Source of the DNA: Acidimicrobiaceae bacterium
Lineage (GTDB): Bacteria; Actinomycetota; Acidimicrobiia; Acidimicrobiales; RAAP-2
Reading direction: 5' to 3'
NCBI GenBank assembly: GCA_003161255.1
Contig: PMOQ01000075.1
Coordinates: forward strand, 1 to 64,000
DNA: 64,000 bases
The notes beneath the pieces were generated by a model. The model was not told the origin of the DNA and ran no database searches. It saw only the letters and a list, made by a program, of their open reading frames with translations. Position numbers and translations under genes: made by a program. Below, piece after piece: positions 47,510 through 64,000 of the stretch; within the stretch, counting starts at the first letter, position 1; each line of letters starts with the position of its first letter.

Positions 47510-48553
47510 TTATGCGCGCGACAGGACCACCTTGAGCGCCTTGGTCTCGGCAGCTTGCGAGAAGACGTCGTAGGCCTCCTCGAACTGGTCGAGCGTGAAG
47601 TGATGCGTGATGAACTGCGCGGCGTCGAGCTGGCCGCTCGAGACCAACCGGAGCAGGGTTGGCGTCGAGTAGGTGTCGACGAGCCCTGTCGTGAAGGTGA
47701 GGTCGAGGGTCCAGAACCGCTCGAGGTGCAGCGTTGCGGCCGTGCCGTGCACGCCGATGTTCGCGACGTGCCCGCCTGGGCGCACGAGGTCTGCGGCGAG
47801 CTCGAACGTGGCGGGTGTGCCGACCGCCTCGATGGCGACGTCGGCGCCCAGGCCGCCCGTGAGCTTGCGAACGACATCGATTGCGTCCTCGCGCGCGTTG
47901 TTGACGATGACGTCGGCGCCGAACCCCTTGGCGGCTTCGAGCCTGGCGTCCGCGAGGTCGATCGACACGATGTGGCTCGGGCTGAAGAGCTTCGCGGTCA
48001 ACGTCGCGGCGAGGCCGATCGGACCGGCACCCACGATCGCGACCACGTCGCCTGGCCGGACGACCCCGTTCAGCACGCCGACCTCGTAAGAGGTCGGGAG
48101 GATGTCGGCCAGCATCAAGATCTCCTCGTCCGAGGAGTGCGAGGGCACGGGATAGGTCGACGTGTCAGCGAACGGGACGCGCACGTACTCGGCCTGGGTG
48201 CCGTCGATGGTGTGTCCGAGGATCCAGCCGCCGCCGCCGAGGCACTGGCCGAATCGTCCCTCCCGGCAGAACCGGCAGGCGCCGCACGCCGTGATGCATG
48301 ACACGAGGACGTGGTCGCCGACCGAGACATTCTTGACCGCACTGCCGACCTCTTCGACCGTGCCGACGGCCTCATGTCCGAGGATCCGTCCATCGGTCAC
48401 CTCTGGCACGTCGCCCTTCAAGATGTGCAGATCCGTTCCGCAGATGGTTGTGGCATCGACCCGGACAATGGCATCGCTGTCGTCTTGGATGACCGGATCG
48501 GGCACATCCTTCCAACTCTTCGATCCCGGCCCCTCGTATACGAGCGCCTTCAT
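47510..48553 (-). CDS. Zinc-dependent alcohol dehydrogenase (MDR family)
   Basis: 347 residues from MKALVYEG at 48553, with AGGAGG 6 nt upstream. Catalytic zinc site CGTDLHI and GHEAVGTVEEVG; structural zinc Cys cluster CGACRFCREGRFGQC; Rossmann motif VAIVGAGPIGLAA. Closest in memory to isopropanol/secondary alcohol or formaldehyde-type dehydrogenases (ILKGDVPEV segment as in NADP sec-ADH). It interconverts an alcohol with an aldehyde or ketone. A DosR-like box lies 65 bp upstream, so induction under oxygen limitation is inferred. Confidence 0.88.
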   Translation of the reverse strand: MKALVYEGPGSKSWKDVPDPVIQDDSDAIVRVDATTICGTDLHILKGDVPEVTDGRILGHEAVGTVEEVGSAVKNVSVGDHVLVSCITACGACRFCREGRFGQCLGGGGWILGHTIDGTQAEYVRVPFADTSTYPVPSHSSDEEILMLADILPTSYEVGVLNGVVRPGDVVAIVGAGPIGLAATLTAKLFSPSHIVSIDLADARLEAAKGFGADVIVNNAREDAIDVVRKLTGGLGADVAIEAVGTPATFELAADLVRPGGHVANIGVHGTAATLHLERFWTLDLTFTTGLVDTYSTPTLLRLVSSGQLDAAQFITHHFTLDQFEEAYDVFSQAAETKALKVVLSRA

Positions 48554-48875: not shown

Positions 48876-49106
48876 AGGCGTCCGCCCGACGAGCAGCTTC
48901 AATGGCGGTGAAGGTCGCAAGAAGCCATGAGAGAAGTGCAACATGCACATCGCGAGCACCTACCGACCGGCAGCGCAAAGGTCCACCGCTCGCCCAGGCA
49001 GTCCTTGAGCCCCTACTTTGTCGAAGAGGTCGCGATGACCAGATCCGACGTTCTGCGTGCGCGTGACATCGAGGTCAGGGCCGGTCGAAAGAGGAAGTGA
49101 ACCGTT

Positions 49107-52100
49107 TTGGCGAGACATCTAGGAGGTCCTGTTGGGCGGGAAGCGGGGTTGAGCCCGACGACGATCTCGCTTGACGAGACCGACGCGTGGGTCTTTGACC
49201 TAGATGGTGTGCTCACCGACACGGCCAGCCTGCACGAGCTCTCCTGGACCGAGGTGTTCCAAGAGCTGTTCGCGACCATTGTTGCTCGAGGGGATGTGCC
49301 GGTCCCTGCGACGTTCAGCGGCCACGACTACCGGCTATTGGTCGACGGCGAGGACCGGATGGATGGGGTTCGCAATGTGCTGGCCGACCGCAAGATTGCC
49401 CTGCCCGAAGGTGCTCCCGACGAGCCAGCGGGATATCAGAGCGTTTGGGCGCTGGCCCAAGAGAAGGACGCTCGATACCTGGCTTTGCTCACAAAAGTCG
49501 GTCCACGCCCCTTCGCTTCCTCGGTCGAGCTGATCCGGCGCCTCCGCACCTCGGGAGTCGATGTGGCCGTCGTGTCGGCCAGCCGACATTGCGCTCAGGT
49601 GCTCGACGCCGCCGGTCTGAGTGACCTGGTGAGTGTTCGGGTCGACGGAGAGACGGTCGAGTTGATGGGACTGGCCGGAAAGCCCGATCCGGCCATGTTC
49701 TTGGAGGCGTCCCGGCGCCTCGGGGTCGAGCCTGCCCGGGCGGCAGTCGTGGAGGACGCCATCGCCGGGGTCCAGGCGGCCAAGCGGGGAGGCTTCCGGG
49801 TGGTGGTCGGCGTCGCCCGTGCCACCGAGGCTGAAGATCTTCGCCAGGCCGGGCCGGATCTCGTCGTGGGAGATCTGGGGGAGCTCTCGCTCACCGGGAA
49901 AGGTCCTCGAGACAGCCCATGGCGACTCACCTATGACGACCCTGGCCCCGGCGAAGAGGGGTTGGTCGAGTCACTGTGCACGCTGGCCAATGGTTACTTG
50001 GGTTCTCGGGGGGCGAGAGCGTGGGCCCGCGACGACGGAACCTCCTACCCGGGCACCTACCTCGCCGGCCTCTACAACCGCCTACAGAGCCAAGTCGACG
50101 GGCAGCTCGTGGAGGTGGAGAGCCTCGTCAACGTGCCCAACTGGCTCCCGGTATCCCTCCGGGCCGATGACGGGAGCTGGCTCGGTGAGGAGGGCTCCAT
50201 GGTGTCTTCTCATCGGATCCGCCTCGATCTGCGCTGCGGTTTGCTGATACGTCACTGCGAGGTCACCGACCGCGTCGGACGTCGGACCGCGGTGGTGGAA
50301 CGACGATTGGTCTCGATGGCCGATCCGCATTTGCTCGCTCTGGAATTGAGTTGTGTCCCGCTCAACTGGTCGGGTCGACTCGCATTGCGTATCGGGCTGG
50401 ACGGCCGCGTGGTGGACGACGAGACCGTCGAGGACCGCCTTTTGGCCAACCGCCATCTCGAGCTGGTCGACCAGGGTGGGGACGACGGTGGGGGACTCTG
50501 GCTGCGCGTTCGGACCGTTCAGTCACAGGTCACCGTGGCCATGGCGGCCCGCTGTCAGATCTCTGGCACGGCTCAGGATCCGGACTGGATGCACGGAGGA
50601 GTGCCCGGATCGCCGGAGGCTCAGGTGACCGTTACCGTGGAGCAAGGGTCCCGGACCACCATCGAGAAAGTGGTGTCGGTGTTCACCTCGAGAGACCGAG
50701 CCATCTCCGAGCCAGCGCTGGCAGCACGTCGGGCCGCGGCCGACGCTCCCGGGTTCGATGACCTGCTTGTCGCCCAGCGGGCAGCCTGGGAGCCGCTCTG
50801 GCATCGGGGGGCGGTGACCGTTCGCGACGAGGGTGGCTCGAGCACGGTGCTGGACCTGCATCTGTTCCATCTGTTGCAGGTCGCCTCTCCTCACATCGTC
50901 GAGCTCGACGCGGGGCTCGGGGCCCGGGGACTGCACGGCGAGGGCTACCGGGGGCACGTGTTCTGGGACGCGTCCTTCGCCTACCCGGTGCTGAACCTCC
51001 GCTTTCCGGCAGTGTCGAGAGCCTTAGTGGCCTACCGCACCCGTCGTCTGCCCGAGGCCCGGCGAGCTGCTGCTGAAGCTGGCCATCAGGGGGCGATGTT
51101 CCCGTGGCAGAGCGGCAGCGATGGACGAGACGAAACACCGGCCTTGCTCTTCAATCCTCGCTCGGGTCGTTGGATGCCCGACCGGTCTCGGTTTGAGCGG
51201 CACGTGGGCTTGGCGGTCGCCTACGACGCCTGGCAACACTGGCAGGTCACCGGGGACCTGGAGTTCGTGGCCGGACCGGGCGCTGAACTGATCTTCGAGG
51301 TGGCTCGTTTCTTCGCCAGCGTGGCCTCTTGGGGCGACGGACTGGGCCGTTTCAGCATCGCCGGTGTGGTCGGGCCCGATGAGTTTCATGACGGGTACCC
51401 ATGGTCGGACGACCCGGGCGTCGTCGACAATGCGTACACCAACGTCATGGCGTCATGGCTCCTGTGGCGTGCTGGTGAACTGTTCGAGCGCTTGGCGGCC
51501 CAGCATCGGTCGGAGACAGCCGAGCGCCTGGGGGTGGACGGTGCGGAGGTGGCTCGATGGGACTCAATCTCCCGCGGGTTGAATGTGCCGTTCCACGATG
51601 GGGTCATCTCCCAATTCGCTGGCTACGAACGGCTCGAACCTTTCGATCTGGACACGTATCGAGACCGGTACGGCACCATCGGTCGCCTCGACCTCATCCT
51701 CGATGCCGAAGGCGACACCGTGCGGCGTTACCAGGTTGGCAAGCAAGCCGACGTGCTGATGCTGCTCTATCTGCTGTCGGCGGAGGAGCTGCGCACCCTG
51801 TTCGGGCGCATGGGCTACGCGCTCGAGCCTGAGACGATCCGAAGGACAGTTGACTACTACGCCCGACGGGTGACCCATGGCTCGACGCTGTCCAGCGTCG
51901 TGCACTCGTGGGTACTTTCCCGAGCGGATCGTCGTGGCTCGTGGCGGTACTTACAAGAGGCCTTCACCTCGGACGTGGCCGACACCCAAGGCGGCACCAC
52001 CAGAGAGGGTGTGCATCTGGGCGCGATGGCCGGCACCGTGGACATCCTCGAGCGCTGTTACACCGGAATGGAGGTTCGAGATGAGACCTTGTGGTTTGAT

Positions 52101-52304
52101 CCGCTCTTGCCCGACGAACTGGCGGGTCTGCAGTTCAATGTGCTGTTTCGGGGCTGCGAGATCGCCGTCGACGTCGAGGGTCGTCGGCTCCGACTCGAAG
52201 CGGCTGACGGGCGCGCCAACTCCGTCACCGTGATGGTGTCGGGGACACCCGTCGTGTTGCACCCGGGCCGAGTGACCGAAATCGACCTGGAGAACACGGA
52301 ATGA
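49107..52304 (+). CDS. Fusion: beta-phosphoglucomutase-like HAD + GH65 phosphorylase
   Basis: 1065 residues; TTG start with GAGGAAG 9 nt upstream (an in-frame TTG at 49152 is possible). HAD domain, about 25-250: FDLDGVLTDTASLHE (nucleophile Asp), VVSASRH, KPDPAMFLEASRRLG, VVEDAIAGVQAAKRGG, all as in beta-phosphoglucomutase. GH65 domain, about 265-1060: GYLGSRGARAW, HVFWDASFAY, catalytic Glu in GVVGPDEFHDG, VDNAYTNVMA, KQADVLMLLYL, THGSTLSSVVHSW. GH65 phosphorylases split trehalose, maltose or kojibiose with phosphate to beta-glucose-1-P, which the HAD half would turn into glucose-6-P. Mycobacteria carry the two as separate neighbours (Rv3400/Rv3401). Confidence 0.85.
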   Translation: MARHLGGPVGREAGLSPTTISLDETDAWVFDLDGVLTDTASLHELSWTEVFQELFATIVARGDVPVPATFSGHDYRLLVDGEDRMDGVRNVLADRKIALPEGAPDEPAGYQSVWALAQEKDARYLALLTKVGPRPFASSVELIRRLRTSGVDVAVVSASRHCAQVLDAAGLSDLVSVRVDGETVELMGLAGKPDPAMFLEASRRLGVEPARAAVVEDAIAGVQAAKRGGFRVVVGVARATEAEDLRQAGPDLVVGDLGELSLTGKGPRDSPWRLTYDDPGPGEEGLVESLCTLANGYLGSRGARAWARDDGTSYPGTYLAGLYNRLQSQVDGQLVEVESLVNVPNWLPVSLRADDGSWLGEEGSMVSSHRIRLDLRCGLLIRHCEVTDRVGRRTAVVERRLVSMADPHLLALELSCVPLNWSGRLALRIGLDGRVVDDETVEDRLLANRHLELVDQGGDDGGGLWLRVRTVQSQVTVAMAARCQISGTAQDPDWMHGGVPGSPEAQVTVTVEQGSRTTIEKVVSVFTSRDRAISEPALAARRAAADAPGFDDLLVAQRAAWEPLWHRGAVTVRDEGGSSTVLDLHLFHLLQVASPHIVELDAGLGARGLHGEGYRGHVFWDASFAYPVLNLRFPAVSRALVAYRTRRLPEARRAAAEAGHQGAMFPWQSGSDGRDETPALLFNPRSGRWMPDRSRFERHVGLAVAYDAWQHWQVTGDLEFVAGPGAELIFEVARFFASVASWGDGLGRFSIAGVVGPDEFHDGYPWSDDPGVVDNAYTNVMASWLLWRAGELFERLAAQHRSETAERLGVDGAEVARWDSISRGLNVPFHDGVISQFAGYERLEPFDLDTYRDRYGTIGRLDLILDAEGDTVRRYQVGKQADVLMLLYLLSAEELRTLFGRMGYALEPETIRRTVDYYARRVTHGSTLSSVVHSWVLSRADRRGSWRYLQEAFTSDVADTQGGTTREGVHLGAMAGTVDILERCYTGMEVRDETLWFDPLLPDELAGLQFNVLFRGCEIAVDVEGRRLRLEAADGRANSVTVMVSGTPVVLHPGRVTEIDLENTE

Positions 52305-52478: not shown

Positions 52479-52925
52479 TTATTCCGTTGCCGGGAGCGCG
52501 CTGTCGTGGTGGCCGAAGATGGCCTCGGCCATAACGGGCCGGCTCAGGTCCGCGAGGTCGGCGGCCAGGTTGATCAAAAGATCGTCGACCGTGATCATCC
52601 CTACGAACCGCCCCTCCTGCACCACCGCTAGTCGCCGATTGCCATGGGTGCGGAACAGCGCGAACGCATCGTGAAGATCGGCTTGAGCATCGATGGTGAC
52701 AACCGGAGTGCTCATCAGGCTGTCGATCCGGGCATCGTAGGGGACGTTGCGCGCCATTCCTCGGCGTACCAGGTCACGATCGGTGATCAGTCCGACCAGA
52801 TGCTCACCATCGACGACTGCCAACGCCCCCACGCCCGACTGCTCCATGATCGTGGCCGCTTCTCGGATTGTCTGTTCGGGGCGAACTCCTACTCCAGACC
52901 GACGGATCCCTTCGATGACCTGCAT
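52479..52925 (-). CDS. CBS-pair protein, Hrp1-like
   Basis: 148 residues, almost all two CBS motifs: first at about 8-60 (VRPEQTIREAATIMEQSGVGALAVVDGEHLVGLITDRDLVRRG), second at about 72-125 (MSTPVVTIDAQADLHDAFALFRTHGNRRLAVV, GMITVDDLL). It is like mycobacterial Hrp1 (Rv2626c), a DosR regulon protein. CBS pairs usually bind adenosine nucleotides; the exact role is unknown. It follows the DUF1918 gene by 48 bp on the same strand and probably shares its promoter and box at 53228. Confidence 0.88.
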   Translation of the reverse strand: MQVIEGIRRSGVGVRPEQTIREAATIMEQSGVGALAVVDGEHLVGLITDRDLVRRGMARNVPYDARIDSLMSTPVVTIDAQADLHDAFALFRTHGNRRLAVVQEGRFVGMITVDDLLINLAADLADLSRPVMAEAIFGHHDSALPATE

Positions 52926-52973
52926 GATCGCTCCTCTCGTCTATTGGCACCTGAGTTGAGGGAGTGCAAACTC

Positions 52974-53174
52974 TCAGCCGAGCGTTGGCTCGAAGTGCTG
53001 AACGCTGGCGTCGGGGCCAGGAAAGAACAAGCTTTCGTGACCACTGTCTCCCCAACGGACCAAGTAGGGCGGCCCACCGTCCGGGCCCCGTACCTCGAGG
53101 ACTTCGCAGTCGCGATCCGGCTCACCGATTCGGTGTCCGTGGATCACGATCCGATCTCCGATGCTCGCGTGCAT
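52974..53174 (-). CDS. DUF1918 protein
   Basis: 66 residues: MHASIGDRIVIHGHRIGEPDRDCEVLEVRG then DGGPPYLVRWGDSGHESLFFPGPDA, the whole PF08940 consensus. A small SH3-like beta protein found in actinobacteria; a mycobacterial member (Rv0569) belongs to the DosR regulon. AGGAGG-type RBS (AAAGGAGGACC) precedes the start. It is the first gene of an operon with the CBS protein, with a symmetric box 54 bp upstream. Confidence 0.9.
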   Translation of the reverse strand: MHASIGDRIVIHGHRIGEPDRDCEVLEVRGPDGGPPYLVRWGDSGHESLFFPGPDASVQHFEPTLG

Positions 53175-53227
53175 GGGGTCCTCCTTTCCCGGCTCCCATA
53201 CTCAATCCGATCGAATACGCCGGGTTA

Positions 53228-53241
53228 GGGCCAAAGGTCCC
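53228..53241. promoter_or_regulatory. DosR-like box before DUF1918-CBS operon
   Basis: GGGCCAAAGGTCCC, 54 bp before the DUF1918 start. Full symmetric form; flanked by TTA and AA like the mycobacterial box. Confidence 0.7.
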
Positions 53242-53252
53242 AACACCGAGGG

Positions 53253-53702
53253 TCAGGAGTCTGTCCAACCGTCGAGGTAAGAGAACCGCCGGCCGCTTAG
53301 CCGGGCGATCTCGATTCTCACCAGGTTCGCCCCTCCGTCGTCGGTTGGCCACGACGGCATTGACACGAGGCTCATCCTTCTGAGCTCATCGGGGTTGCTC
53401 ACCCGGGAGGCGACTCCCTGGGCCATCACGCTCCAGCCACTGGAGGTCGCCGGTACGTAGGCATCTGCCTGGAAGGCGACGACGGCCTTTCTGGTCGCCG
53501 CGTCGAGCTCGGTGCCAGCAACGGTTCGCAAGAGGATGGACTGGTCATCCAGCGCGTAGAACACCGGGAGAATGACGGGCAGCGCACCGATACTTATACC
53601 CACTCGACCAAGTGAAGCCTGCCCGAGGAGCGCCAGGCACTCCGCATAGGTCAGAACTTCTGACGCGGCAGGATCTTCCATAGATGGGTCGATCATGATC
53701 AT
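53253..53702 (-). CDS. Pyridoxamine 5'-phosphate oxidase-like flavin-binding protein
   Basis: 149 residues (start may be 53702, 53696 or 53681; no RBS decides it). Split-barrel features: LTYAECLALLGQASLGRVGISIGALPVILPVFYALD, ILLRTVAGTELDAATRKAVVAFQADAY, SGWSVMAQGVASRV. This matches the PNPOx-like/F420-FMN 'nitroreductase fold-independent' split barrel group; a similar protein (Rv3129) is in the DosR regulon. It likely binds FMN or F420. A box at 53721-53734 overlaps its promoter. Confidence 0.8.
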   Translation of the reverse strand: MIMIDPSMEDPAASEVLTYAECLALLGQASLGRVGISIGALPVILPVFYALDDQSILLRTVAGTELDAATRKAVVAFQADAYVPATSSGWSVMAQGVASRVSNPDELRRMSLVSMPSWPTDDGGANLVRIEIARLSGRRFSYLDGWTDS

Positions 53703-53720
53703 TACATCTGTGGTCCGGCA

Positions 53721-53734
53721 GGGCCGAAGGTCCC
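53721..53734. promoter_or_regulatory. DosR-like box before PNPOx-like gene
   Basis: GGGCCGAAGGTCCC followed by AA, 19 bp before the longest ORF start of the flavoprotein gene. This closeness favours a downstream start codon (53681) or an activator site overlapping the core promoter. Confidence 0.7.
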
Positions 53735-53879
53735 AATCTTCAGGCGGACCGCGCAGGGCGACTATCCCGTGCTTCTTCTACGCGGAGGTCGACTTCATAA
53801 TCAACGGAGGCGGGCGGCTCGTATCGTCGGGAGTTGGGTCTCGGCACCCCAGGGCTGGTGGTGGGAACGTCCGGCTCTC

Positions 53880-53893
53880 GGGACTTTGGTCCC
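53880..53893. promoter_or_regulatory. DosR-like box before universal stress protein gene
   Basis: GGGACTTTGGTCCC. The mycobacterial DosR core is GGGACTWWAGTCCC, so only one position differs. It is the best match in the window, 124 bp before the USP start. Confidence 0.75.
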
Positions 53894-54016
53894 TACCCGG
53901 CGTTCAGTTCGTCATTCATAGTTGAGTGAGCGCGAGGCATCTGCGGCCGCTGCCCGCCGCACCGGCTCGGGACGGCAGTCGCTTGCGGGACGACCAGACC
54001 CTCGAAGGAGACAGAC

Positions 54017-54463
54017 GTGACGAGTACGCAGCGCCAGTCGAACAACCGAATCGTCGTAGGAGTGGACGGCTCTAACGCTTCTTCGGCTGCTCTCGAGTGG
54101 GCGGGGCGCCAGGCGGAGGTGACCGGATCCGTACTCGAGCTCGTGACGGCGTGGGAGTGGCCGACCACCTATGGAGCGCCGTTCACCTTCACTCCCGAAT
54201 GGAATCCGGCCGCGGACGCCGATCTGGTCATCCAATCTGCCGTGAAGGAGGTGCGCGAGGCGCATCCGGACATCGAGATCCGCACGACCGTCGAGGAGGG
54301 GCATCCGGCACCGGTCCTGGTCAAGGCGTCTCAGGGCGCTGACCTGCTCGTCGTGGGCTGCCGCGGTCATGGCGAGTTCGTGGGCATGTTGCTCGGCTCG
54401 GTGAGCGAGCACTGCGTCACCAACGCCCGCTGCCCCGTGCTGGTCCTACGGGGTGGGCGATAG
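54017..54463 (+). CDS. Universal stress protein (UspA family)
   Basis: 148 residues, GTG start, RBS GAAGGAG. N-terminal RIVVGVDGSNASSAALEWA and the ATP-binding GCRGHGEFVGMLLGSVSEHC followed by CPVLVLRG, fitting G-2x-G-9x-G(S/T), so an ATP-binding member. Mycobacterial relatives (Rv2623 and others) are DosR-controlled and help growth arrest. The ABC exporter genes follow 88 bp downstream in the same direction and may share its transcript. Confidence 0.92.
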   Translation: MTSTQRQSNNRIVVGVDGSNASSAALEWAGRQAEVTGSVLELVTAWEWPTTYGAPFTFTPEWNPAADADLVIQSAVKEVREAHPDIEIRTTVEEGHPAPVLVKASQGADLLVVGCRGHGEFVGMLLGSVSEHCVTNARCPVLVLRGGR

Positions 54464-54551
54464 CCTGCCTCCTTCAGTCTCACGCCACAGTGAGACGACC
54501 ACGGTGAGATACGCAAGAAACATCGCGTCAACCGACAAAGGAGCTGTACCT

Positions 54552-55469
54552 GTGGGCGCGATTGCGATTCGAACCGAGGGCCTGTCCAAGCGTTACCGCA
54601 CCTCCGAGGCGTTGCGAGACCTGAACCTTGAGGTGGCCGAAGGCGAGGCGGTCGGCTACCTCGGACCCAATGGCGCCGGCAAGACAACCACCATCCGTCT
54701 GCTGCTGGGCCTGATTCGTCCGACAAAGGGGCGAGCCGAGATCTTCGGGCTCGACTGTCAGCGTCAAGCGGTCGAGGCCCATCGGCGGGTCAGCTACGTG
54801 GCCGGCGAGGCGAATCTCTGGCCTTCGCTGACCGGCGCCGAGACACTGCATCTGCTGGGCCGGGTGCAGGGCCGAGTTGACCAGGCCTATCGCGACGAGC
54901 TGATCACACGGTTCGACTTCGATCCCTCGAAGAAGGTTCGGGCGTACTCCAAGGGCAACCGCCAGAAATTGATCCTGATTGCTGCGCTCATGACCCGCCC
55001 CGACCTTCTTGTTCTCGACGAGCCGACCAGCGGGCTCGATCCCCTGATGGAACAGGCGTTCCGTCACTCCATGCACGAGGCGAGGGAGCGAGGTCAGACC
55101 GTCTTTCTGTCCTCTCACATCCTGAGCGAGGTGGAGGCCCTGTGTGACCGGGTGGGCATCCTTCGCGAAGGGGTGCTGGTCGACATGGGAACGCTGTCGG
55201 AGATGCGCCATCTCTCCGCCCTCAGTGTGGAAGCGACCTTTGACGGGTCCGTCCCCGACCTCTCGCATGTGCCCGGTGTGGAGTCGGTGCAGACCGAGGG
55301 GCGGGTGGTCCGCTGTCAAGTGCGCGGGACGGTCGAGCCTCTCTTGAAGGTGCTGGCGGCTTCGGGGGTCCACGAACTGTTGAGTCGCGAGCCGTCGCTA
55401 GAGGAGCTGTTCCTGGCCCATTACGGGGCCCGTCCCGAGCCCGAGGACGAGCCGCCACGTGCAAGCTGA
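54552..55469 (+). CDS. ABC transporter ATP-binding protein (DrrA/CcmA type)
   Basis: 305 residues from the GTG at 54552, with AAAGGAG 8 nt upstream; the track start at 54453 overlaps the USP gene. Walker A GPNGAGKTT, signature AYSKGNRQKL in place of LSGGQ (usual in this exporter branch), Walker B LLVLDEPTSGLD, switch His in LSSHILSEVEAL. A C-terminal regulatory region (about 225-300) follows. It powers the permease encoded next, whose start overlaps by 11 nt. Confidence 0.9.
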   Translation: MGAIAIRTEGLSKRYRTSEALRDLNLEVAEGEAVGYLGPNGAGKTTTIRLLLGLIRPTKGRAEIFGLDCQRQAVEAHRRVSYVAGEANLWPSLTGAETLHLLGRVQGRVDQAYRDELITRFDFDPSKKVRAYSKGNRQKLILIAALMTRPDLLVLDEPTSGLDPLMEQAFRHSMHEARERGQTVFLSSHILSEVEALCDRVGILREGVLVDMGTLSEMRHLSALSVEATFDGSVPDLSHVPGVESVQTEGRVVRCQVRGTVEPLLKVLAASGVHELLSREPSLEELFLAHYGARPEPEDEPPRAS

Positions 55470-57108
55470 CGTGGTGACCGGCCCGCCGATGCCGGCGGGC
55501 CGCTGGCCCGGCTCGGTGATCGCCCGATTGACCGCGCGGAAGGCAGCCCGTTCGGGGGTGCTGTGGGGCTATGTCTTCGGGGTCTACGTGGCCTCTACGG
55601 CGTTGGGGTATGCGGCGACATACAAGACCCAGACCGAGCGTGACCACTTGGCGACCACGTTCGGGACGAACGCGGCGATAGACGCGCTCATCGGCCCGGC
55701 CCGGCAGATTCAGACGGTGGCCGGCTTCACTGCGTGGCGGAGCTTGGGCGTCCTAAGCATCGTTGGGGCCGTCTGGGGGCTTTTGGCGGCGACCAGGCTT
55801 CTACGCGGGGAAGAGGATGCCGGTCGGTGGGAGGCACTGCTGGCAGGCCAGACAACCCCGAGACGCGGCGCCGCTCAAGCGCTCATCGGACTAGGAGTCG
55901 GAGCTGCCACGCTGTGGATGCTCACCGCAGTTGTCACTATCGCCGTGGGGCGCTCATCGAAGGTCGACATCGATGTGGGCGCGGCCATGTTCTTCGCGCT
56001 GGTACTGGTGGCGAGCGCCGTTATGTTCCTTGCCGTTGGGGCATTGGCCAGCCAGCTTGCGGCCACCCGCCGCCAGGCGGCCGCCTACGGCGGTGCGGCA
56101 CTCGGGCTGAGTTATGCCCTGCGATTGGTGTCCGACTCCAGCACCCGATTCGGCTGGCTGCGGTGGGTGTCGCCTCTGGGTTGGGTCGAGCAGCTGCGTC
56201 CGGTTACGGCCTCAAGGCCACTCGTACTTCTGCCGATCGCCGGATTCACGGCGGTCTTGGTCGTCTCTGCCATCTCGTTGGCCGGCCGACGCGACTTGGG
56301 TGCGAGTGTGCTGCCGGATCGCAACACCGCCGAGGCACGCACGCGGTTGCTCTCGGGGCCCCTCGGCTTGGCCATCCGCCTGGCCCGACCCACCGTCGCC
56401 GGGTGGGCGGTTGCGATCGGGGTGTTTGCGCTCCTTCTTGGCTTCATCGCCAAGGCTGCCGGCGAAGCGATCTCCAGTTCTTCAAGTGCCGAGCACGCGA
56501 TCTCGCACCTCGGTGCCCCCGGGAGCGGGCCCGGGGCCTTCCTCGGGGTGACCTTCTTGATGGTCGCGCTGGTGGTGGCGCTCATGGGTGTCGCACAAGT
56601 TGTCGCGGCACGGACCGAGGAGTCCGGGGGAGAACTGGACAACCTCCTCGTCCGGCCGGTCCGCCGTTGGTCCTGGCTCGTCGGGAGGCTGGTCGTGGCG
56701 ATCGCGGCCTGTGTCATCAGCGGCCTGATCGCGGGCGTTTGCTCCTGGGTTGGCGAAACTAGCCAGCACTCTGGCGTTCGCTTCACGACCTTGCTTGGCG
56801 CCGGCTTCAACATCGTCCCTCCGGCGGTGTTGCTTCTGGGTGTCGGCCTGCTCACGCTGGGTATCTGGCCACGCGCGGTTTCGATCACCGTTTACGGGGT
56901 GCTCGCCTGGTCGTTCCTAGTCGATCTCATCGGCGGAATCATCGGATTGAACCACTGGGTGCTCGATAGCTCGGTCTTCCATCAGATCGCGGTGGCTCCG
57001 GCCGTGGCTCCGAACTGGACGACGAACGGGATCTTGGTGGCGGTCGGTCTGGCCATGGCCACTATCGGCGGTATTGCTTTCATGCACCGGGACCTGCAGG
57101 GAGCTTGA
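55459..57108 (+). CDS. ABC-2 type exporter permease (polyketide-antibiotic exporter-like)
   Basis: 549 residues, GTG start overlapping the ATPase gene by 11 nt. About 12 hydrophobic segments in two similar halves, as in COG3559 'exporter of polyketide antibiotics' (tetronasin-type; Rv1217c-like). Features: LARLTARKAARSGVLWG-like start, LLAATRLLRGEEDAGRWEALLAGQTTPRR, and in the second half RTEESGGELDNLLVRPVRRWSWLVGR. The repeated 'E(E)xxGxxExLLxxxxxR' box is the mark of this family. The substrate is unknown; the place in the stress block suggests a role in dormancy or self-protection. Confidence 0.85.
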   Translation: MQADVVTGPPMPAGRWPGSVIARLTARKAARSGVLWGYVFGVYVASTALGYAATYKTQTERDHLATTFGTNAAIDALIGPARQIQTVAGFTAWRSLGVLSIVGAVWGLLAATRLLRGEEDAGRWEALLAGQTTPRRGAAQALIGLGVGAATLWMLTAVVTIAVGRSSKVDIDVGAAMFFALVLVASAVMFLAVGALASQLAATRRQAAAYGGAALGLSYALRLVSDSSTRFGWLRWVSPLGWVEQLRPVTASRPLVLLPIAGFTAVLVVSAISLAGRRDLGASVLPDRNTAEARTRLLSGPLGLAIRLARPTVAGWAVAIGVFALLLGFIAKAAGEAISSSSSAEHAISHLGAPGSGPGAFLGVTFLMVALVVALMGVAQVVAARTEESGGELDNLLVRPVRRWSWLVGRLVVAIAACVISGLIAGVCSWVGETSQHSGVRFTTLLGAGFNIVPPAVLLLGVGLLTLGIWPRAVSITVYGVLAWSFLVDLIGGIIGLNHWVLDSSVFHQIAVAPAVAPNWTTNGILVAVGLAMATIGGIAFMHRDLQGA

Positions 57109-57233
57109 CCGCGGGGACTCGATATCACGATTCGGGGTTACTCGAAGGACTGTGGACCTGAAACCGATGTCGGCGTCCCCAGTTCGTGGCTGGCATCACA
57201 TCGGCCAAGCGATCGCAAGATCGTTGGAGGACC

Positions 57234-57722
57234 TCACTCCGATTTGCGTAAGGATTCCTCGGAGGCGCCGTGTTGTCCCACCCGTATCAGGACTGCGGCA
57301 ACGTTCGCATGTAGCGCCATCGACTCCTGGTCTTGCACGAGCACTGTGAACAGCTGTGCCATCGAGATGATCCCAAGGGGAAAGTCAGCGACATCAAGGA
57401 CGACGAGATGCCGAATGCCGAGGCTAATCATCATCGCCCCCGCAACGGCCGGGGTCGTCGACGCCGGCACCCAGTACGGATGACTTGTCGCGACGGTAGC
57501 GACCTCGTCATCTGCGCTGCACCTCGATACCCATGCGCAGGCAAGGTCGCGTTCGGTGACGATACGCAGCGGCGTTTCCCTCAGCAGTGCAGACGACACA
57601 TGGCGCTCGGCCAAAAGCAGTGCGACCTCGGCCAACGTGTCCGCCTCCGAGACCACGGTTGGAGGATCGAGTGGCAAGTTCTCCAGGGTCTCCCTGAAAC
57701 CAGCGGTCAACCACTCAGCCAT
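57234..57722 (-). CDS. CBS-pair protein
   Basis: 162 residues; CBS 1 at about 18-70 (VVSEADTLAEVALLLAERHVSSALLRETPLRIVTERDLACAW), CBS 2 at about 80-135 (PYWVPASTTPAVAGAMMISLGIRHLVVL, GIISMAQLFTVL). It differs from the other two CBS proteins here by a shorter linker in the first motif and a longer C-terminal tail. It probably senses an adenine nucleotide. A perfectly palindromic box (57758-57771) lies 36 bp upstream. Confidence 0.82.
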   Translation of the reverse strand: MAEWLTAGFRETLENLPLDPPTVVSEADTLAEVALLLAERHVSSALLRETPLRIVTERDLACAWVSRCSADDEVATVATSHPYWVPASTTPAVAGAMMISLGIRHLVVLDVADFPLGIISMAQLFTVLVQDQESMALHANVAAVLIRVGQHGASEESLRKSE

Positions 57723-61186: not shown

Positions 61187-61451
61187 CCGCGAAACCCCGA
61201 TCGATTCTCAGTCCTCGACTATGACGCGAACGGCCGGCACGCCGAGATCGGCCTCTAGGCACACGCCCTGTCCTCGGTTCGCGACCGTCAGTGGGTCGGG
61301 GTTGCTGAGCCCTGTTGGCTCGTCATCTCGACCACCTCCAGGTGACGGTACGCCGATCACCCGTCGTCGGGCAGGGTCGAATGCCCCGATCTTGAGCTCC
61401 GAATGACCATTGCCCCTAGCGGTCCGGCCCGACGGTTGGGACGATGGGGGA

Positions 61452-64000
61452 GTGAGCCCGCGTCGATACCGTGCCCCGGAGGTTCCCGACTCGACCTTCG
61501 AGGCGGTCATCTTCGACTGGGACGGCACCGCGGTCCCAGACCGGCAAGCCGACGCAACGGCGGTACGCGGTCGGGTCGAGGGGCTCTGTAGGGCGGGGGT
61601 ACACGTGTTCGTCGTGAGCGGCACGCATGTCGAGAACATCGACGGCCAGCTCGAGGCCAGGCCACGGGGTCCGGGACAACTGTACCTGTGCTGCAACCGG
61701 GGCTCCGAGGTCTTCGAGGTCACCGGAAAGGGTCCAGTTCTCGTGTCCCGGCGCGTCGCCAGTACCGACGAAGACCGAGCGCTCGACCGGGCGGCCGAGG
61801 GGACCGTTGAGCGGCTCCGGACGCGAGGTTTGGAAGCCAAAGTGGTGACCCAGCGGCTCAATCGCCGCAAGATCGATCTCATCCCCCTTCCGGAATTGGC
61901 CGATCCCAAGAAGGCGGACATCGACTTGCTCGCCGATGCGGTCAGCGCTCGGCTGGCCACGGCCGGGATCGCGGACCTGGCCGAGGTGGTCGCCCTCGCC
62001 GGCGACGCCGCGCGCGCGGGCGGGTTGGTCGACCCGCGGATCACGAGCGACGTGAAGCACGTGGAGATCGGGCTGACCGACAAATCGGACTCAGCCCGGT
62101 TCGCGGCCAGCTGGCTGGCCGCGCGAGGCGTCACCGGTGCGCTGGTACTGATCGGGGGTGACGAGCTCGGACCCATCGGTGGGGTGGCCGGAAGCGATTC
62201 GATGATGTTGGTGGACGCTTTCGCTCGTGCCACGGTGGTGTCGGTGGGGATCGAGCCTGGTGGCGTCCCCACTCCGGTGGTGCACCTGGGCGGCGGCCCA
62301 GCCCGTTTCGCGGAGCTGCTCGACGGCCAGCTCGGACGCCGAGCCGGCCACCGGGTACCCCAGATCGACCCGGACCCAGCCTGGGTCGTCGCGCTGCCCA
62401 ACGTCCAGGCCAAGGAACGAGTCGCCGAGGCGCTCGGCACTCTCGGCAACGGCTTCGCCGCGACGCGAGGCTCCCGGGAAGAGGACGGACCCGGGACCTC
62501 GCCGCTCTTCCTGGTGAGTGGGGTCTACACCGAGGACAACCGCTTGGTCCCCGGGCCGACCTGGACCGGCCTCGAACTGGAAAGCGGTCACGACCGATCC
62601 ACCGAGCGCCGGTTGCTCGACCTGCGTACCGGTGTCCTGGTCCGTTCCGGGAACGACGGAAAGGGGCTGCGGTCCATGCGCTTTGTCTCCGCCGCCTCGC
62701 CTCACGCCATGGCTTTGCGAGCCGAGGCGGTCGAGCCCTGCCTTGAGCCCGGCGACCCGCTGCGGCCGCCCGGAGACACCGTGGACTTCGAACGAGAAGA
62801 CCGAGGTGAGGTGCGCATGGCCCGGACGGGTCAGAGCGGTCACGAGATCGCAGTGGCCACCCGCGAACGCGTTGGGACTGTGGCCGGCCGGCGGGTGGTC
62901 GAACGGATGGCCGCTTGGGCCGCTGGCTCTGGCCAGAAGAGCTTCGACGACGCTGAACGGCAGCTCCTGGAGGTCGAAGCGATGGGCTTCGACCAACTGC
63001 TGGCCGGGCACAGAGAAGCGTGGACGGGCCGGTGGACAGACGCACAGGTAGTGATCGATGGGGACCCCGAGGCCGAACTGGCGGCGCGGTTCAGTCTGTT
63101 CCACCTCCTGTCGGCGGCCTCCGACACCGGGGAGAGTGCGGTTGGGGCCCGCGGATTGACCGGCGACGCCTACGCGGGACATGTCTTTTGGGACGCCGAC
63201 GTCTTCGTGTTGCCGGCGCTGGCGGCCATCCGGCCAGCGGCGGCGCGGGCAATGCTCGAATACCGCATCCGCCGCCTCCCTGCAGCCCGGGCCACCGCCA
63301 TCGGCCTGGGATTGCAAGGGGCCCGCTTCCCCTGGGAGTCGGCCGGTGACGGGAGCGACGTCACGCCCCGTCAAGTGATCGGACTTCACGGCGAGATCAT
63401 CCCGATCACCACCGGCCCCCACGAAGAACACATCGTGGCTGACATTGCCTGGTCGGCGGCGCGCTACGCGGCGTGGACGGGGGACGAGCACTTCCTGGCC
63501 GGAGCTGGACGCGACCTGCTCGTCGACACCGCCCGCTACTGGTCCAGCCGAATTCGGACCGATGCGGAGGGCCGTGGCCACCTCTTCGGGGTCGAGGGCC
63601 CCGACGAGTACCACGAGGTGGTCGACGACAACGCGTACACCAACGTTATGGCCCGTTGGAATTTGTCCCAAGGCGCGAAGTTCCTCGCGAAGACCGACCC
63701 CGCCTCCCCGGAGGCCCGCCGGTGGCTCATCCAGGCCGAGGGGTTGGTCGACGGGTGGAACTCCGAGCGGGGTCTCTACGAGCAGTTCGCGGGGTACTTC
63801 GACTTGGAGCCGCTGCTCATGTCCGATGTTGCCGCGCCGCCGGTCGCAGTCGACGTGCTGCTCGGTCCGGGGCGGGTGGCCGGCTCTCAGCTCATCAAAC
63901 AGGCCGACGTGATGATGCTCCATCACCTGGTGCCAGAAGAGGTGGTGGCCGGGTCGCTCGGCCCGTGCCTCGCCTTCTATGAGCCTCGGACCGCGCACGG
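61452..64000 (+). CDS. Fusion: HAD-IIB-like phosphatase + GH65 phosphorylase (3' cut by window)
   Basis: 849 codons are open from the GTG at 61452 to the window edge; the ORF track lacks it because no stop is present. HAD domain, about 15-280: VIFDWDGTAVPDRQAD (nucleophile Asp), FVVSGTH, DKSDSARFAASWLA, VLIGGDELGPIGG then GSDSMML, a cap-type nearer trehalose-6-P phosphatase/phosphomannomutase (HAD-IIB) than beta-PGM. GH65 domain from about 310: GNGFAATRGSREE, HVFWDADVFVLPAL, catalytic Glu in GVEGPDEYHEVV, DDNAYTNVMARWN, KQADVMMLHHL. So it has the same overall plan as the gene at 49107 but a different HAD half. Confidence 0.85.
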   Translation, partial: MSPRRYRAPEVPDSTFEAVIFDWDGTAVPDRQADATAVRGRVEGLCRAGVHVFVVSGTHVENIDGQLEARPRGPGQLYLCCNRGSEVFEVTGKGPVLVSRRVASTDEDRALDRAAEGTVERLRTRGLEAKVVTQRLNRRKIDLIPLPELADPKKADIDLLADAVSARLATAGIADLAEVVALAGDAARAGGLVDPRITSDVKHVEIGLTDKSDSARFAASWLAARGVTGALVLIGGDELGPIGGVAGSDSMMLVDAFARATVVSVGIEPGGVPTPVVHLGGGPARFAELLDGQLGRRAGHRVPQIDPDPAWVVALPNVQAKERVAEALGTLGNGFAATRGSREEDGPGTSPLFLVSGVYTEDNRLVPGPTWTGLELESGHDRSTERRLLDLRTGVLVRSGNDGKGLRSMRFVSAASPHAMALRAEAVEPCLEPGDPLRPPGDTVDFEREDRGEVRMARTGQSGHEIAVATRERVGTVAGRRVVERMAAWAAGSGQKSFDDAERQLLEVEAMGFDQLLAGHREAWTGRWTDAQVVIDGDPEAELAARFSLFHLLSAASDTGESAVGARGLTGDAYAGHVFWDADVFVLPALAAIRPAAARAMLEYRIRRLPAARATAIGLGLQGARFPWESAGDGSDVTPRQVIGLHGEIIPITTGPHEEHIVADIAWSAARYAAWTGDEHFLAGAGRDLLVDTARYWSSRIRTDAEGRGHLFGVEGPDEYHEVVDDNAYTNVMARWNLSQGAKFLAKTDPASPEARRWLIQAEGLVDGWNSERGLYEQFAGYFDLEPLLMSDVAAPPVAVDVLLGPGRVAGSQLIKQADVMMLHHLVPEEVVAGSLGPCLAFYEPRTAH

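Follow-up and report, generated by a model that had tools for sequence, protein, structure and literature searches.

A predicted fusion of beta-phosphoglucomutase with a GH65 phosphorylase related to trehalose 6-phosphate phosphorylases in an Acidimicrobiaceae genome

Introduction

The phosphorylases of glycoside hydrolase family 65 (GH65) and beta-phosphoglucomutase (bPGM) are textbook enzymes, and so is the pathway link between them. Here we analyze a gene that joins both in one chain, found in a 64,000-nucleotide stretch of the genome of a soil actinobacterium of the Acidimicrobiaceae (contig PMOQ01000075.1 of assembly GCA_003161255.1, positions 1 to 64,000; hereafter the window). Judged from its sequence, the encoded protein is very probably a bPGM combined with a phosphorylase. 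Its closest described counterparts are trehalose 6-phosphate phosphorylase (T6PP; EC 2.4.1.216; TrePP of L. lactis, CaGP of Caldithrix), kojibiose phosphorylase CsKP (PDB 3wiq/3wir), and, for the mutase half, the bPGM Rv3400 of M. tuberculosis (8h5s).

Two bodies of work on GH65 frame the comparison. De Beul et al. published six specificity positions and left a dozen subgroups uncharacterized; their motifs are DQGQDE for T6PP, TRIGPP for trehalose, EEAPxx for kojibiose, KV[MF]NES for maltose, and FAITQA for alpha-1,3-oligoglucan phosphorylases (PMC8537180). GH65 phosphorylases hold phosphate by two Ser, one His, and one Lys, whose places are taken by Pro-Ala, Phe, and Met in the GH65 hydrolase FjGH65A (PMC8626586). 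A further protein of interest is OtsB1 (Rv2006), a 1327-residue member of the DosR regulon with no assigned function (PMC11046441, PMC12090744). The fusion itself is present in public annotation, with several homologous fusions labeled 'beta-phosphoglucomutase family hydrolase' in RefSeq. We found no published account or assay of a bPGM-GH65 fusion in the open literature, subscription papers lying outside this coverage.

Results

One open frame joins a bPGM-type domain to a complete GH65 phosphorylase

The gene and its elements, listed here, lie on the forward strand:

49107-52304, + strand: fusion gene, bPGM-type HAD / GH65 phosphorylase; single open reading frame, 1065 amino acids, TTG start
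49090-49097, + strand: putative ribosome-binding site, AGAGGAAG (sequence and inference)
49182-49886, + strand: bPGM-type HAD domain, residues 26-260, with D31/D33, H43, S159, K192, and E216/D217 (Pfam and alignment)
49896-49913, + strand: short linker joining both enzymes, residues 264-269 (AlphaFold pLDDT <50)
49944-50693, + strand: GH65 N-terminal beta-sandwich, residues 280-529 (Pfam)
50856-52040, + strand: GH65 catalytic (alpha/alpha)6 barrel, residues 584-978 (Pfam)
51105-51212, + strand: loop 3 and rim of the +1 subsite, residues 667-702, with Q668, G670, P678, L681, and D692 (alignment; PMC8537180)
51381-51383, + strand: catalytic general acid Glu759 (GPDE), invariant, homologous to FjGH65A Glu472
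51693-51695, + strand: Leu863, an Arg in the T6PP-type grade and Leu throughout the clade of the window protein
51882-51887, + strand: Ser926-Thr927, phosphate-binding pair (alignment, conservation)
52068-52259, + strand: GH65 C-terminal domain, residues 988-1051 (Pfam)

Translation of the window gave zero internal stops in this frame, and the purine-rich AGAGGAAG lies about 10 nucleotides 5' of its TTG. Pfam matched HAD at residues 26-229 (E = 1.6e-22), GH65N at 280-529 (2e-57), GH65m at 584-978 (7.5e-117), and GH65C at 988-1051 (1.4e-14). The GH65 part (residues 272-1051) is thus a complete phosphorylase, with all three domains in the expected order. The HAD half scored below the cut-offs of two NCBIfam models, the family model TIGR02009 (E = 1e-39; 136.7 bits, cut-off 153) and the bPGM equivalog TIGR01990 (97 bits, cut-off 189). 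Together with many full-length homologs, the open frame and its Pfam domains bear out the first-pass annotation, made from the DNA letters alone, which had placed bPGM and a GH65 phosphorylase in one chain.

The catalytic residues of both halves are conserved. The HAD half carries the motifs of subclass I HAD mutases (DxDGV-T-T..H, Ser, Lys, Glu-Asp), and in alignments its bPGM residues match those of L. lactis bPGM (1lvh) and of 8h5s. Across 40 full-length homologs, D31, D33, T37, H43, S159, K192, and D217 are invariant and E216 is conserved in >90%, consistent with the earlier statement that all beta-PGM motifs are present. In the GH65 half, W620, D621, E759, K879, Q880, D882, G925, S926, and H970 are invariant and T927 exceeds 90%. 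The catalytic Glu and the KQAD/THGS regions singled out earlier were therefore confirmed in part: Glu759, K879-Q880-D882, and G925-S926 never change, but the 'T' and 'H' of THGS vary, relatives reading SHGS, ANGS, or AEGS. The general-base column of the hydrolase falls at Q961 or E967, its placing being ambiguous in the alignment.

An AlphaFold model built with a multiple sequence alignment of the 40 homologs had a mean pLDDT of 85.9 and a low-confidence linker at 264-269; a single-sequence run (pLDDT 39) was discarded. Foldseek ranked PDB 9lb6 first (TM 0.94 on target), followed by kojibiose phosphorylase 3wir/3wiq, glucosylglycerol phosphorylase, and maltose phosphorylase, and 9lb6 is the nearest solved structure to the GH65 half by both sequence and fold. 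For the HAD half, the nearest is 8h5s. This protein, Rv3400, is 43% identical and shares the long-cap variant, but is free-standing.

The phosphate site of the window protein consists of R615, S926-T927, and H970, as in 9lb6. Because these residues are present, unlike in FjGH65A, the GH65 half is predicted to be a phosphorylase and not a hydrolase. A GH65 hydrolase was considered and ruled out on these phosphate-site residues, an S-T pair replacing the Pro-Ala of FjGH65A. The phosphorylase-type site likewise supports the earlier proposal that bPGM is joined here to an enzyme forming beta-glucose 1-phosphate.

Spread of the fusion

A contig scan returned 80 loci (the prefix L below marks these and other loci of the analysis). 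Three are full-length fusions in other metagenome-assembled genomes (MAGs), at 96%, 77%, and 77% identity, and about 70 more, at 41-52%, come from Micrococcales, Mycobacteriales, Acidimicrobiia, and others; a chance joining is thereby excluded. In an even sample of the phylum, 64 of 397 genomes hold a strong homolog, and in about 10 the match extends through the HAD half. The fusion also occurs in Mycolicibacterium/mycobacteria (L025, L029, L032, L039, L104), so that the first-pass view of the two enzymes as separate neighbors in mycobacteria is only partly right. An assembly or annotation artifact might be suspected, given that the window derives from a MAG and that the two parts lie in adjacent frames in L108 and L113. 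Fused copies found independently in genomes of isolates and on plasmids already refute it, leaving this possibility negligible.

The GH65 half is nearest to T6PP but differs at conserved positions

We compared the specificity positions numbered by CsKP (64/392/394/402/416/585), having recovered EEAP for kojibiose phosphorylase 3wiq as an alignment control. Loop-3 residues 668, 670, 678, and 692 of the window protein are among these positions (PMC8537180). Its motif reads SQGPDE, and nearly all members of its clade read [H/S]QGPDE. The nearest published motif is DQGQDE of T6PP, equal at four of six positions (Q, G, D, E) and different at 64 (S) and 402 (P). Exact DQGQDE occurs in 9lb6 and in the L. 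plantarum GH65 enzyme encoded beside pgmB, and the OtsB-linked proteins described below have the same or a close motif. The window motif equals none of TRIGPP, EEAPxx, KV[MF]NES, FAITQA, and DQGQDE. This result does not support the substrate list first given for the enzyme (trehalose, kojibiose, maltose, nigerose): every group on it with a published motif is more distant than T6PP. CsKP is similar in fold and phosphate site but differs in loop 3 and most specificity positions, sharing only P402 and E585.

The published specificity positions, the fold, and the tree all place the GH65 half nearest to T6PP, which occupies the same region of the GH65 tree and gives the best fold match. It is distinguished from T6PP by S at 64, P at 402, Leu/Leu for His/Arg, and the fused bPGM. 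The deposited name of 9lb6, from Weissella ceti, is trehalose 6-phosphate (T6P) hydrolase or phosphatase; this is probably a misnomer, as the protein shares its GH65 fold and DQGQDE motif with T6P phosphorylase.

Clade-conserved differences from the T6PP-type grade lie at window-protein positions 583, 613, 678 (P for Q), 681 (L/F for H), and 863 (L for R). In the tree, the 27 representatives with P-L/F-L at the last three positions form one clade (98% SH-aLRT) nested in Q-H-R enzymes, a grade that contains 9lb6. Other changes include QNL in Nitrobacter, where His and Arg independently became Asn and Leu, and DFF in a Methylomirabilota MAG. A tree of the HAD domain recovered broadly the same groups and was poorly resolved. 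Residues 681 and 863 are placed near the +1 subsite by alignment only, the former in loop 3 and the latter five residues before specificity position 585. We infer that the His681 and Arg863 equivalents bind the 6-phosphate of T6P; the loss of both beside specificity positions would fit an enzyme that has ceased to bind this phosphate.

Because these putative 6-phosphate ligands are gone, we favor unphosphorylated trehalose, with moderate confidence, as the substrate of a modified T6PP-type site and not of a classical trehalose phosphorylase. Two other substrates were weighed. Were the GH65 half still a T6PP, T6P and inorganic phosphate (Pi) would give two molecules of glucose 6-phosphate through the in-chain bPGM with no kinase. 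The retained Q, G, D, and E, the position of the clade inside the T6PP-type grade with 9lb6 as nearest structure, and an otsA gene for T6P synthesis in the window's own genome speak for this. The whole clade, however, has Leu/Phe and Leu in place of the His and Arg that the grade conserves, departs from the T6PP motif at 64 and 402, and includes no member adjoining OtsB, so that we consider continued T6P phosphorolysis unlikely. Equally doubtful is an undescribed GH65 specificity for an alpha-glucoside other than trehalose, T6P, kojibiose, maltose, or nigerose. P678, L681, and L863 stand where the grade has polar residues, a change that could accommodate another aglycone, and [H/S]QGPDE equals no characterized group in a family with a dozen uncharacterized subgroups (PMC8537180). 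In contrast, the loop-3 segments W-Q-S-G and W.PD.S..QRHV are shared with the T6PP group, which points to an unchanged alpha-1,1 geometry.

Residue loss, gene context, and OtsB-linked relatives

Gene context differed between enzymes with Leu and with Arg at 863. Among Leu863 enzymes, bPGM is fused or directly upstream in 84 of 85 and OtsB lies within 3.5 kb in 0 of 85; among Arg863 enzymes, OtsB is found in 21 of 34, 13 of those 21 having bPGM ahead (order bPGM-OtsB-GH65). These counts come from related sequences, the first sample having been selected for its resemblance to the window protein, and some class loci have just 1.5 kb of flank. An independent-pairs test relating residue loss to gene context yielded only one to two pairs and had no power.

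The bPGM, OtsB, and GH65 modules occur as one protein or as adjacent genes in L123, L090, L091, L115, L117, L119-L122, and L128. In L123, a class relative, all three share one frame; in L090 and L091, a bPGM-OtsB fusion overlaps the GH65 gene. Rv2006 presumably contains all three modules as well, an assumption that draws on its length and not on its sequence. By this and the L123 architecture, OtsB1 appears to be a cousin of the window protein with a phosphatase in the middle. OtsB1 and the L123, L090, and L091 systems have the same bPGM and GH65 modules, a related GH65 clade, and a DosR-type context, but carry a trehalose-phosphatase domain between the modules. Pfam found no OtsB-type domain (PF02358) in the window protein, where only the short linker separates the domains, and L123, L090, and L091 retain the Q-H-R residues that its clade does not.

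These relatives bear on the direction of the reaction. A mainly synthetic enzyme, making an alpha-glucoside from glucose 6-phosphate via beta-glucose 1-phosphate, is conceivable in that GH65 reactions are reversible and that OtsB-bearing relatives could pull synthesis by dephosphorylating T6P. The window's clade is without OtsB and has no obvious pull, and its neighbors are catabolic; we regard a synthetic role as very unlikely.

Of 84 loci, 27 encode phosphoketolase, which is immediately upstream and in the same orientation in 18, and 23 encode type II GAPDH, immediately downstream in 13. A tight phosphoketolase / bPGM-GH65 / type II GAPDH operon recurs in Micrococcales and Mycobacteriales (L010, L024, L028, L045, L046, L075, L092, L096, L100, and others), often with genes for a copper/heavy-metal P-type ATPase (41 of 84 loci) and a multicopper oxidase in the vicinity. 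The annotated order in Pseudarthrobacter is phosphoketolase, fusion, GAPDH, and catabolic neighbors are found also in Corynebacterium marinum and Rhodococcus. The Nitrobacter locus comprises acetate kinase, glucokinase, the fusion, HAD-IIB, a mannoside-phosphorylase-like gene, and phosphoketolase. A 77% relative (L006) has phosphoketolase and acetate kinase nearby. The fusions annotated as 'beta-phosphoglucomutase family hydrolase' or HAD-family in Rhodococcus, Corynebacterium, Pseudarthrobacter, Mycolicibacterium, and Nitrobacter share the two-domain architecture at about 41-52% identity. They lie mostly in phosphoketolase/GAPDH/copper islands, whereas the window fusion lies in a Usp/CBS/PNPOx island.

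The DosR-like site and the dormancy-type surroundings

The first-pass annotation had also linked the gene to a DosR-like box and to the use of stored sugar during arrest. The best DosR-consensus site in the window is the following:

53877-53896, strand not assigned: DosR-like palindrome CTCGGGACTTTGGTCCCTAC, 16/20, upstream of the Usp gene at 54017-54463 and not of the fusion

A stretch of 64 kb would be expected to contain about 0.1 sites of this quality, and the site is conserved in the 96% relative (L005). Since it lies downstream of the fusion gene, 1.6 kb past its stop, it cannot be the gene's own promoter element. No match of at least 14/20 was found close upstream of 49107. Near homologs, there were three sites of at least 16/20 in 1.28 Mb and none at a fusion gene, and a generic search for GGGAC-N4-GNCCC with two mismatches was uninformative (495 matches, 552 expected). 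A DosR box at this gene is thus not borne out, and direct DosR control is unsupported; the dormancy-type neighborhood is real, and regulation during arrest is possible but would be indirect.

Usp, CBS, and PNPOx genes adjoin the fusion, and such a dormancy-type setting is plausible. All three genes stand beside Q-H-R-type GH65 genes in Kitasatospora, and Usp also in Streptomyces. The island extends over window positions 52479-57722 and L085:8157-13493, and contains genes for CBS, PNPOx, Usp, an ABC transporter pair, CBS, GAPDH-I, ADH, GH65, Usp, a glycosyltransferase, and a GNAT/acyl-CoA synthetase. On plasmids of Kitasatospora and Streptomyces, GH65 genes are flanked by part of this set. Just upstream of the L005 fusion locus (L005:1782-3719) lies a pair encoding a DevR-like regulator and a DevS-like GAF kinase, absent at that place in the window. 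The best solved relative of the regulator is DevR/DosR (E = 3e-70), and the GAF domain of the kinase is nearest DevS. An 88% ortholog of this regulator is encoded on another contig of the window genome, synteny with L005 ending at window position 47562.

The island holds a second GH65 gene, at window positions 61410-64000 and on to contig position 64442 (L085:5410-8442). Its 1010-residue product has an N-terminus of about 330 amino acids with a HAD-like DWDGT motif and no Pfam or NCBIfam match, and its specificity positions, REAPT-, are nearest kojibiose phosphorylase. It may represent another, distinct type of HAD-GH65 fusion.

Discussion

The best explanation of these data, though one that could as easily fail as hold, is a bifunctional cytoplasmic catabolic enzyme that converts trehalose and Pi to glucose and glucose 6-phosphate. 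It builds on directly observed features (the fusion, its catalytic residues, the clade, and the residue changes), from which we infer the substrate, the direction, and a benefit of coupling. The GH65 half, a derived T6PP-type enzyme whose presumed 6-phosphate clamp changed from His/Arg to Leu/Leu, would phosphorolyze an alpha-glucoside with inversion, Glu759 serving as general acid and R615, S926, T927, and H970 holding phosphate. With alpha,alpha-trehalose as the likeliest substrate, the products would be beta-glucose 1-phosphate and glucose, and the bPGM half of the same chain would turn the former into glucose 6-phosphate. The earlier idea of a disaccharide reaching glucose 6-phosphate without ATP would then hold for just one glucose unit, the other, released in free form, needing a kinase; T6P as substrate would yield glucose 6-phosphate from both units. 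Trehalose is probably present, as the window's own genome encodes otsA, otsB, and treS.

Several points weigh against this explanation. SQGPDE equals no characterized group, TRIGPP included, and the aglycone could be something else. The 6-phosphate role of the His681 and Arg863 equivalents is deduced from conservation. Just two independent losses of Arg863 were counted on the tree, too few for statistics, and L114 is a direct fusion with His and Arg kept, so that fusion and loss are not strictly tied. The glucokinase link comes from a single locus, that of Nitrobacter, and phosphoketolase was not found in the window's own genome, which is 87% complete.

A broader and distinctly tentative idea, which we think improbable as a whole, is that one modular family serves two opposite uses of trehalose. 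OtsB1/Rv2006-type systems (bPGM, OtsB, Q-H-R GH65) would synthesize it without nucleotide sugar: glucose 6-phosphate would be converted to beta-glucose 1-phosphate, which would react with glucose 6-phosphate to give T6P and Pi, and T6P would be hydrolyzed to trehalose and Pi. The window's clade, having dropped the phosphatase and the 6-phosphate clamp, would run in reverse and feed trehalose via bPGM into phosphoketolase, an ATP-sparing route in arrested cells.

For GH65, a clade found in many Actinobacteria whose specificity motif matches no described group offers a concrete and cheap test case. The comparison suggests a possible function for OtsB1-type proteins, which apparently combine the same modules with a trehalose phosphatase. 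Finally, a phosphorylase and mutase in one chain would lend itself to studies of substrate hand-over and to use in enzymatic synthesis.

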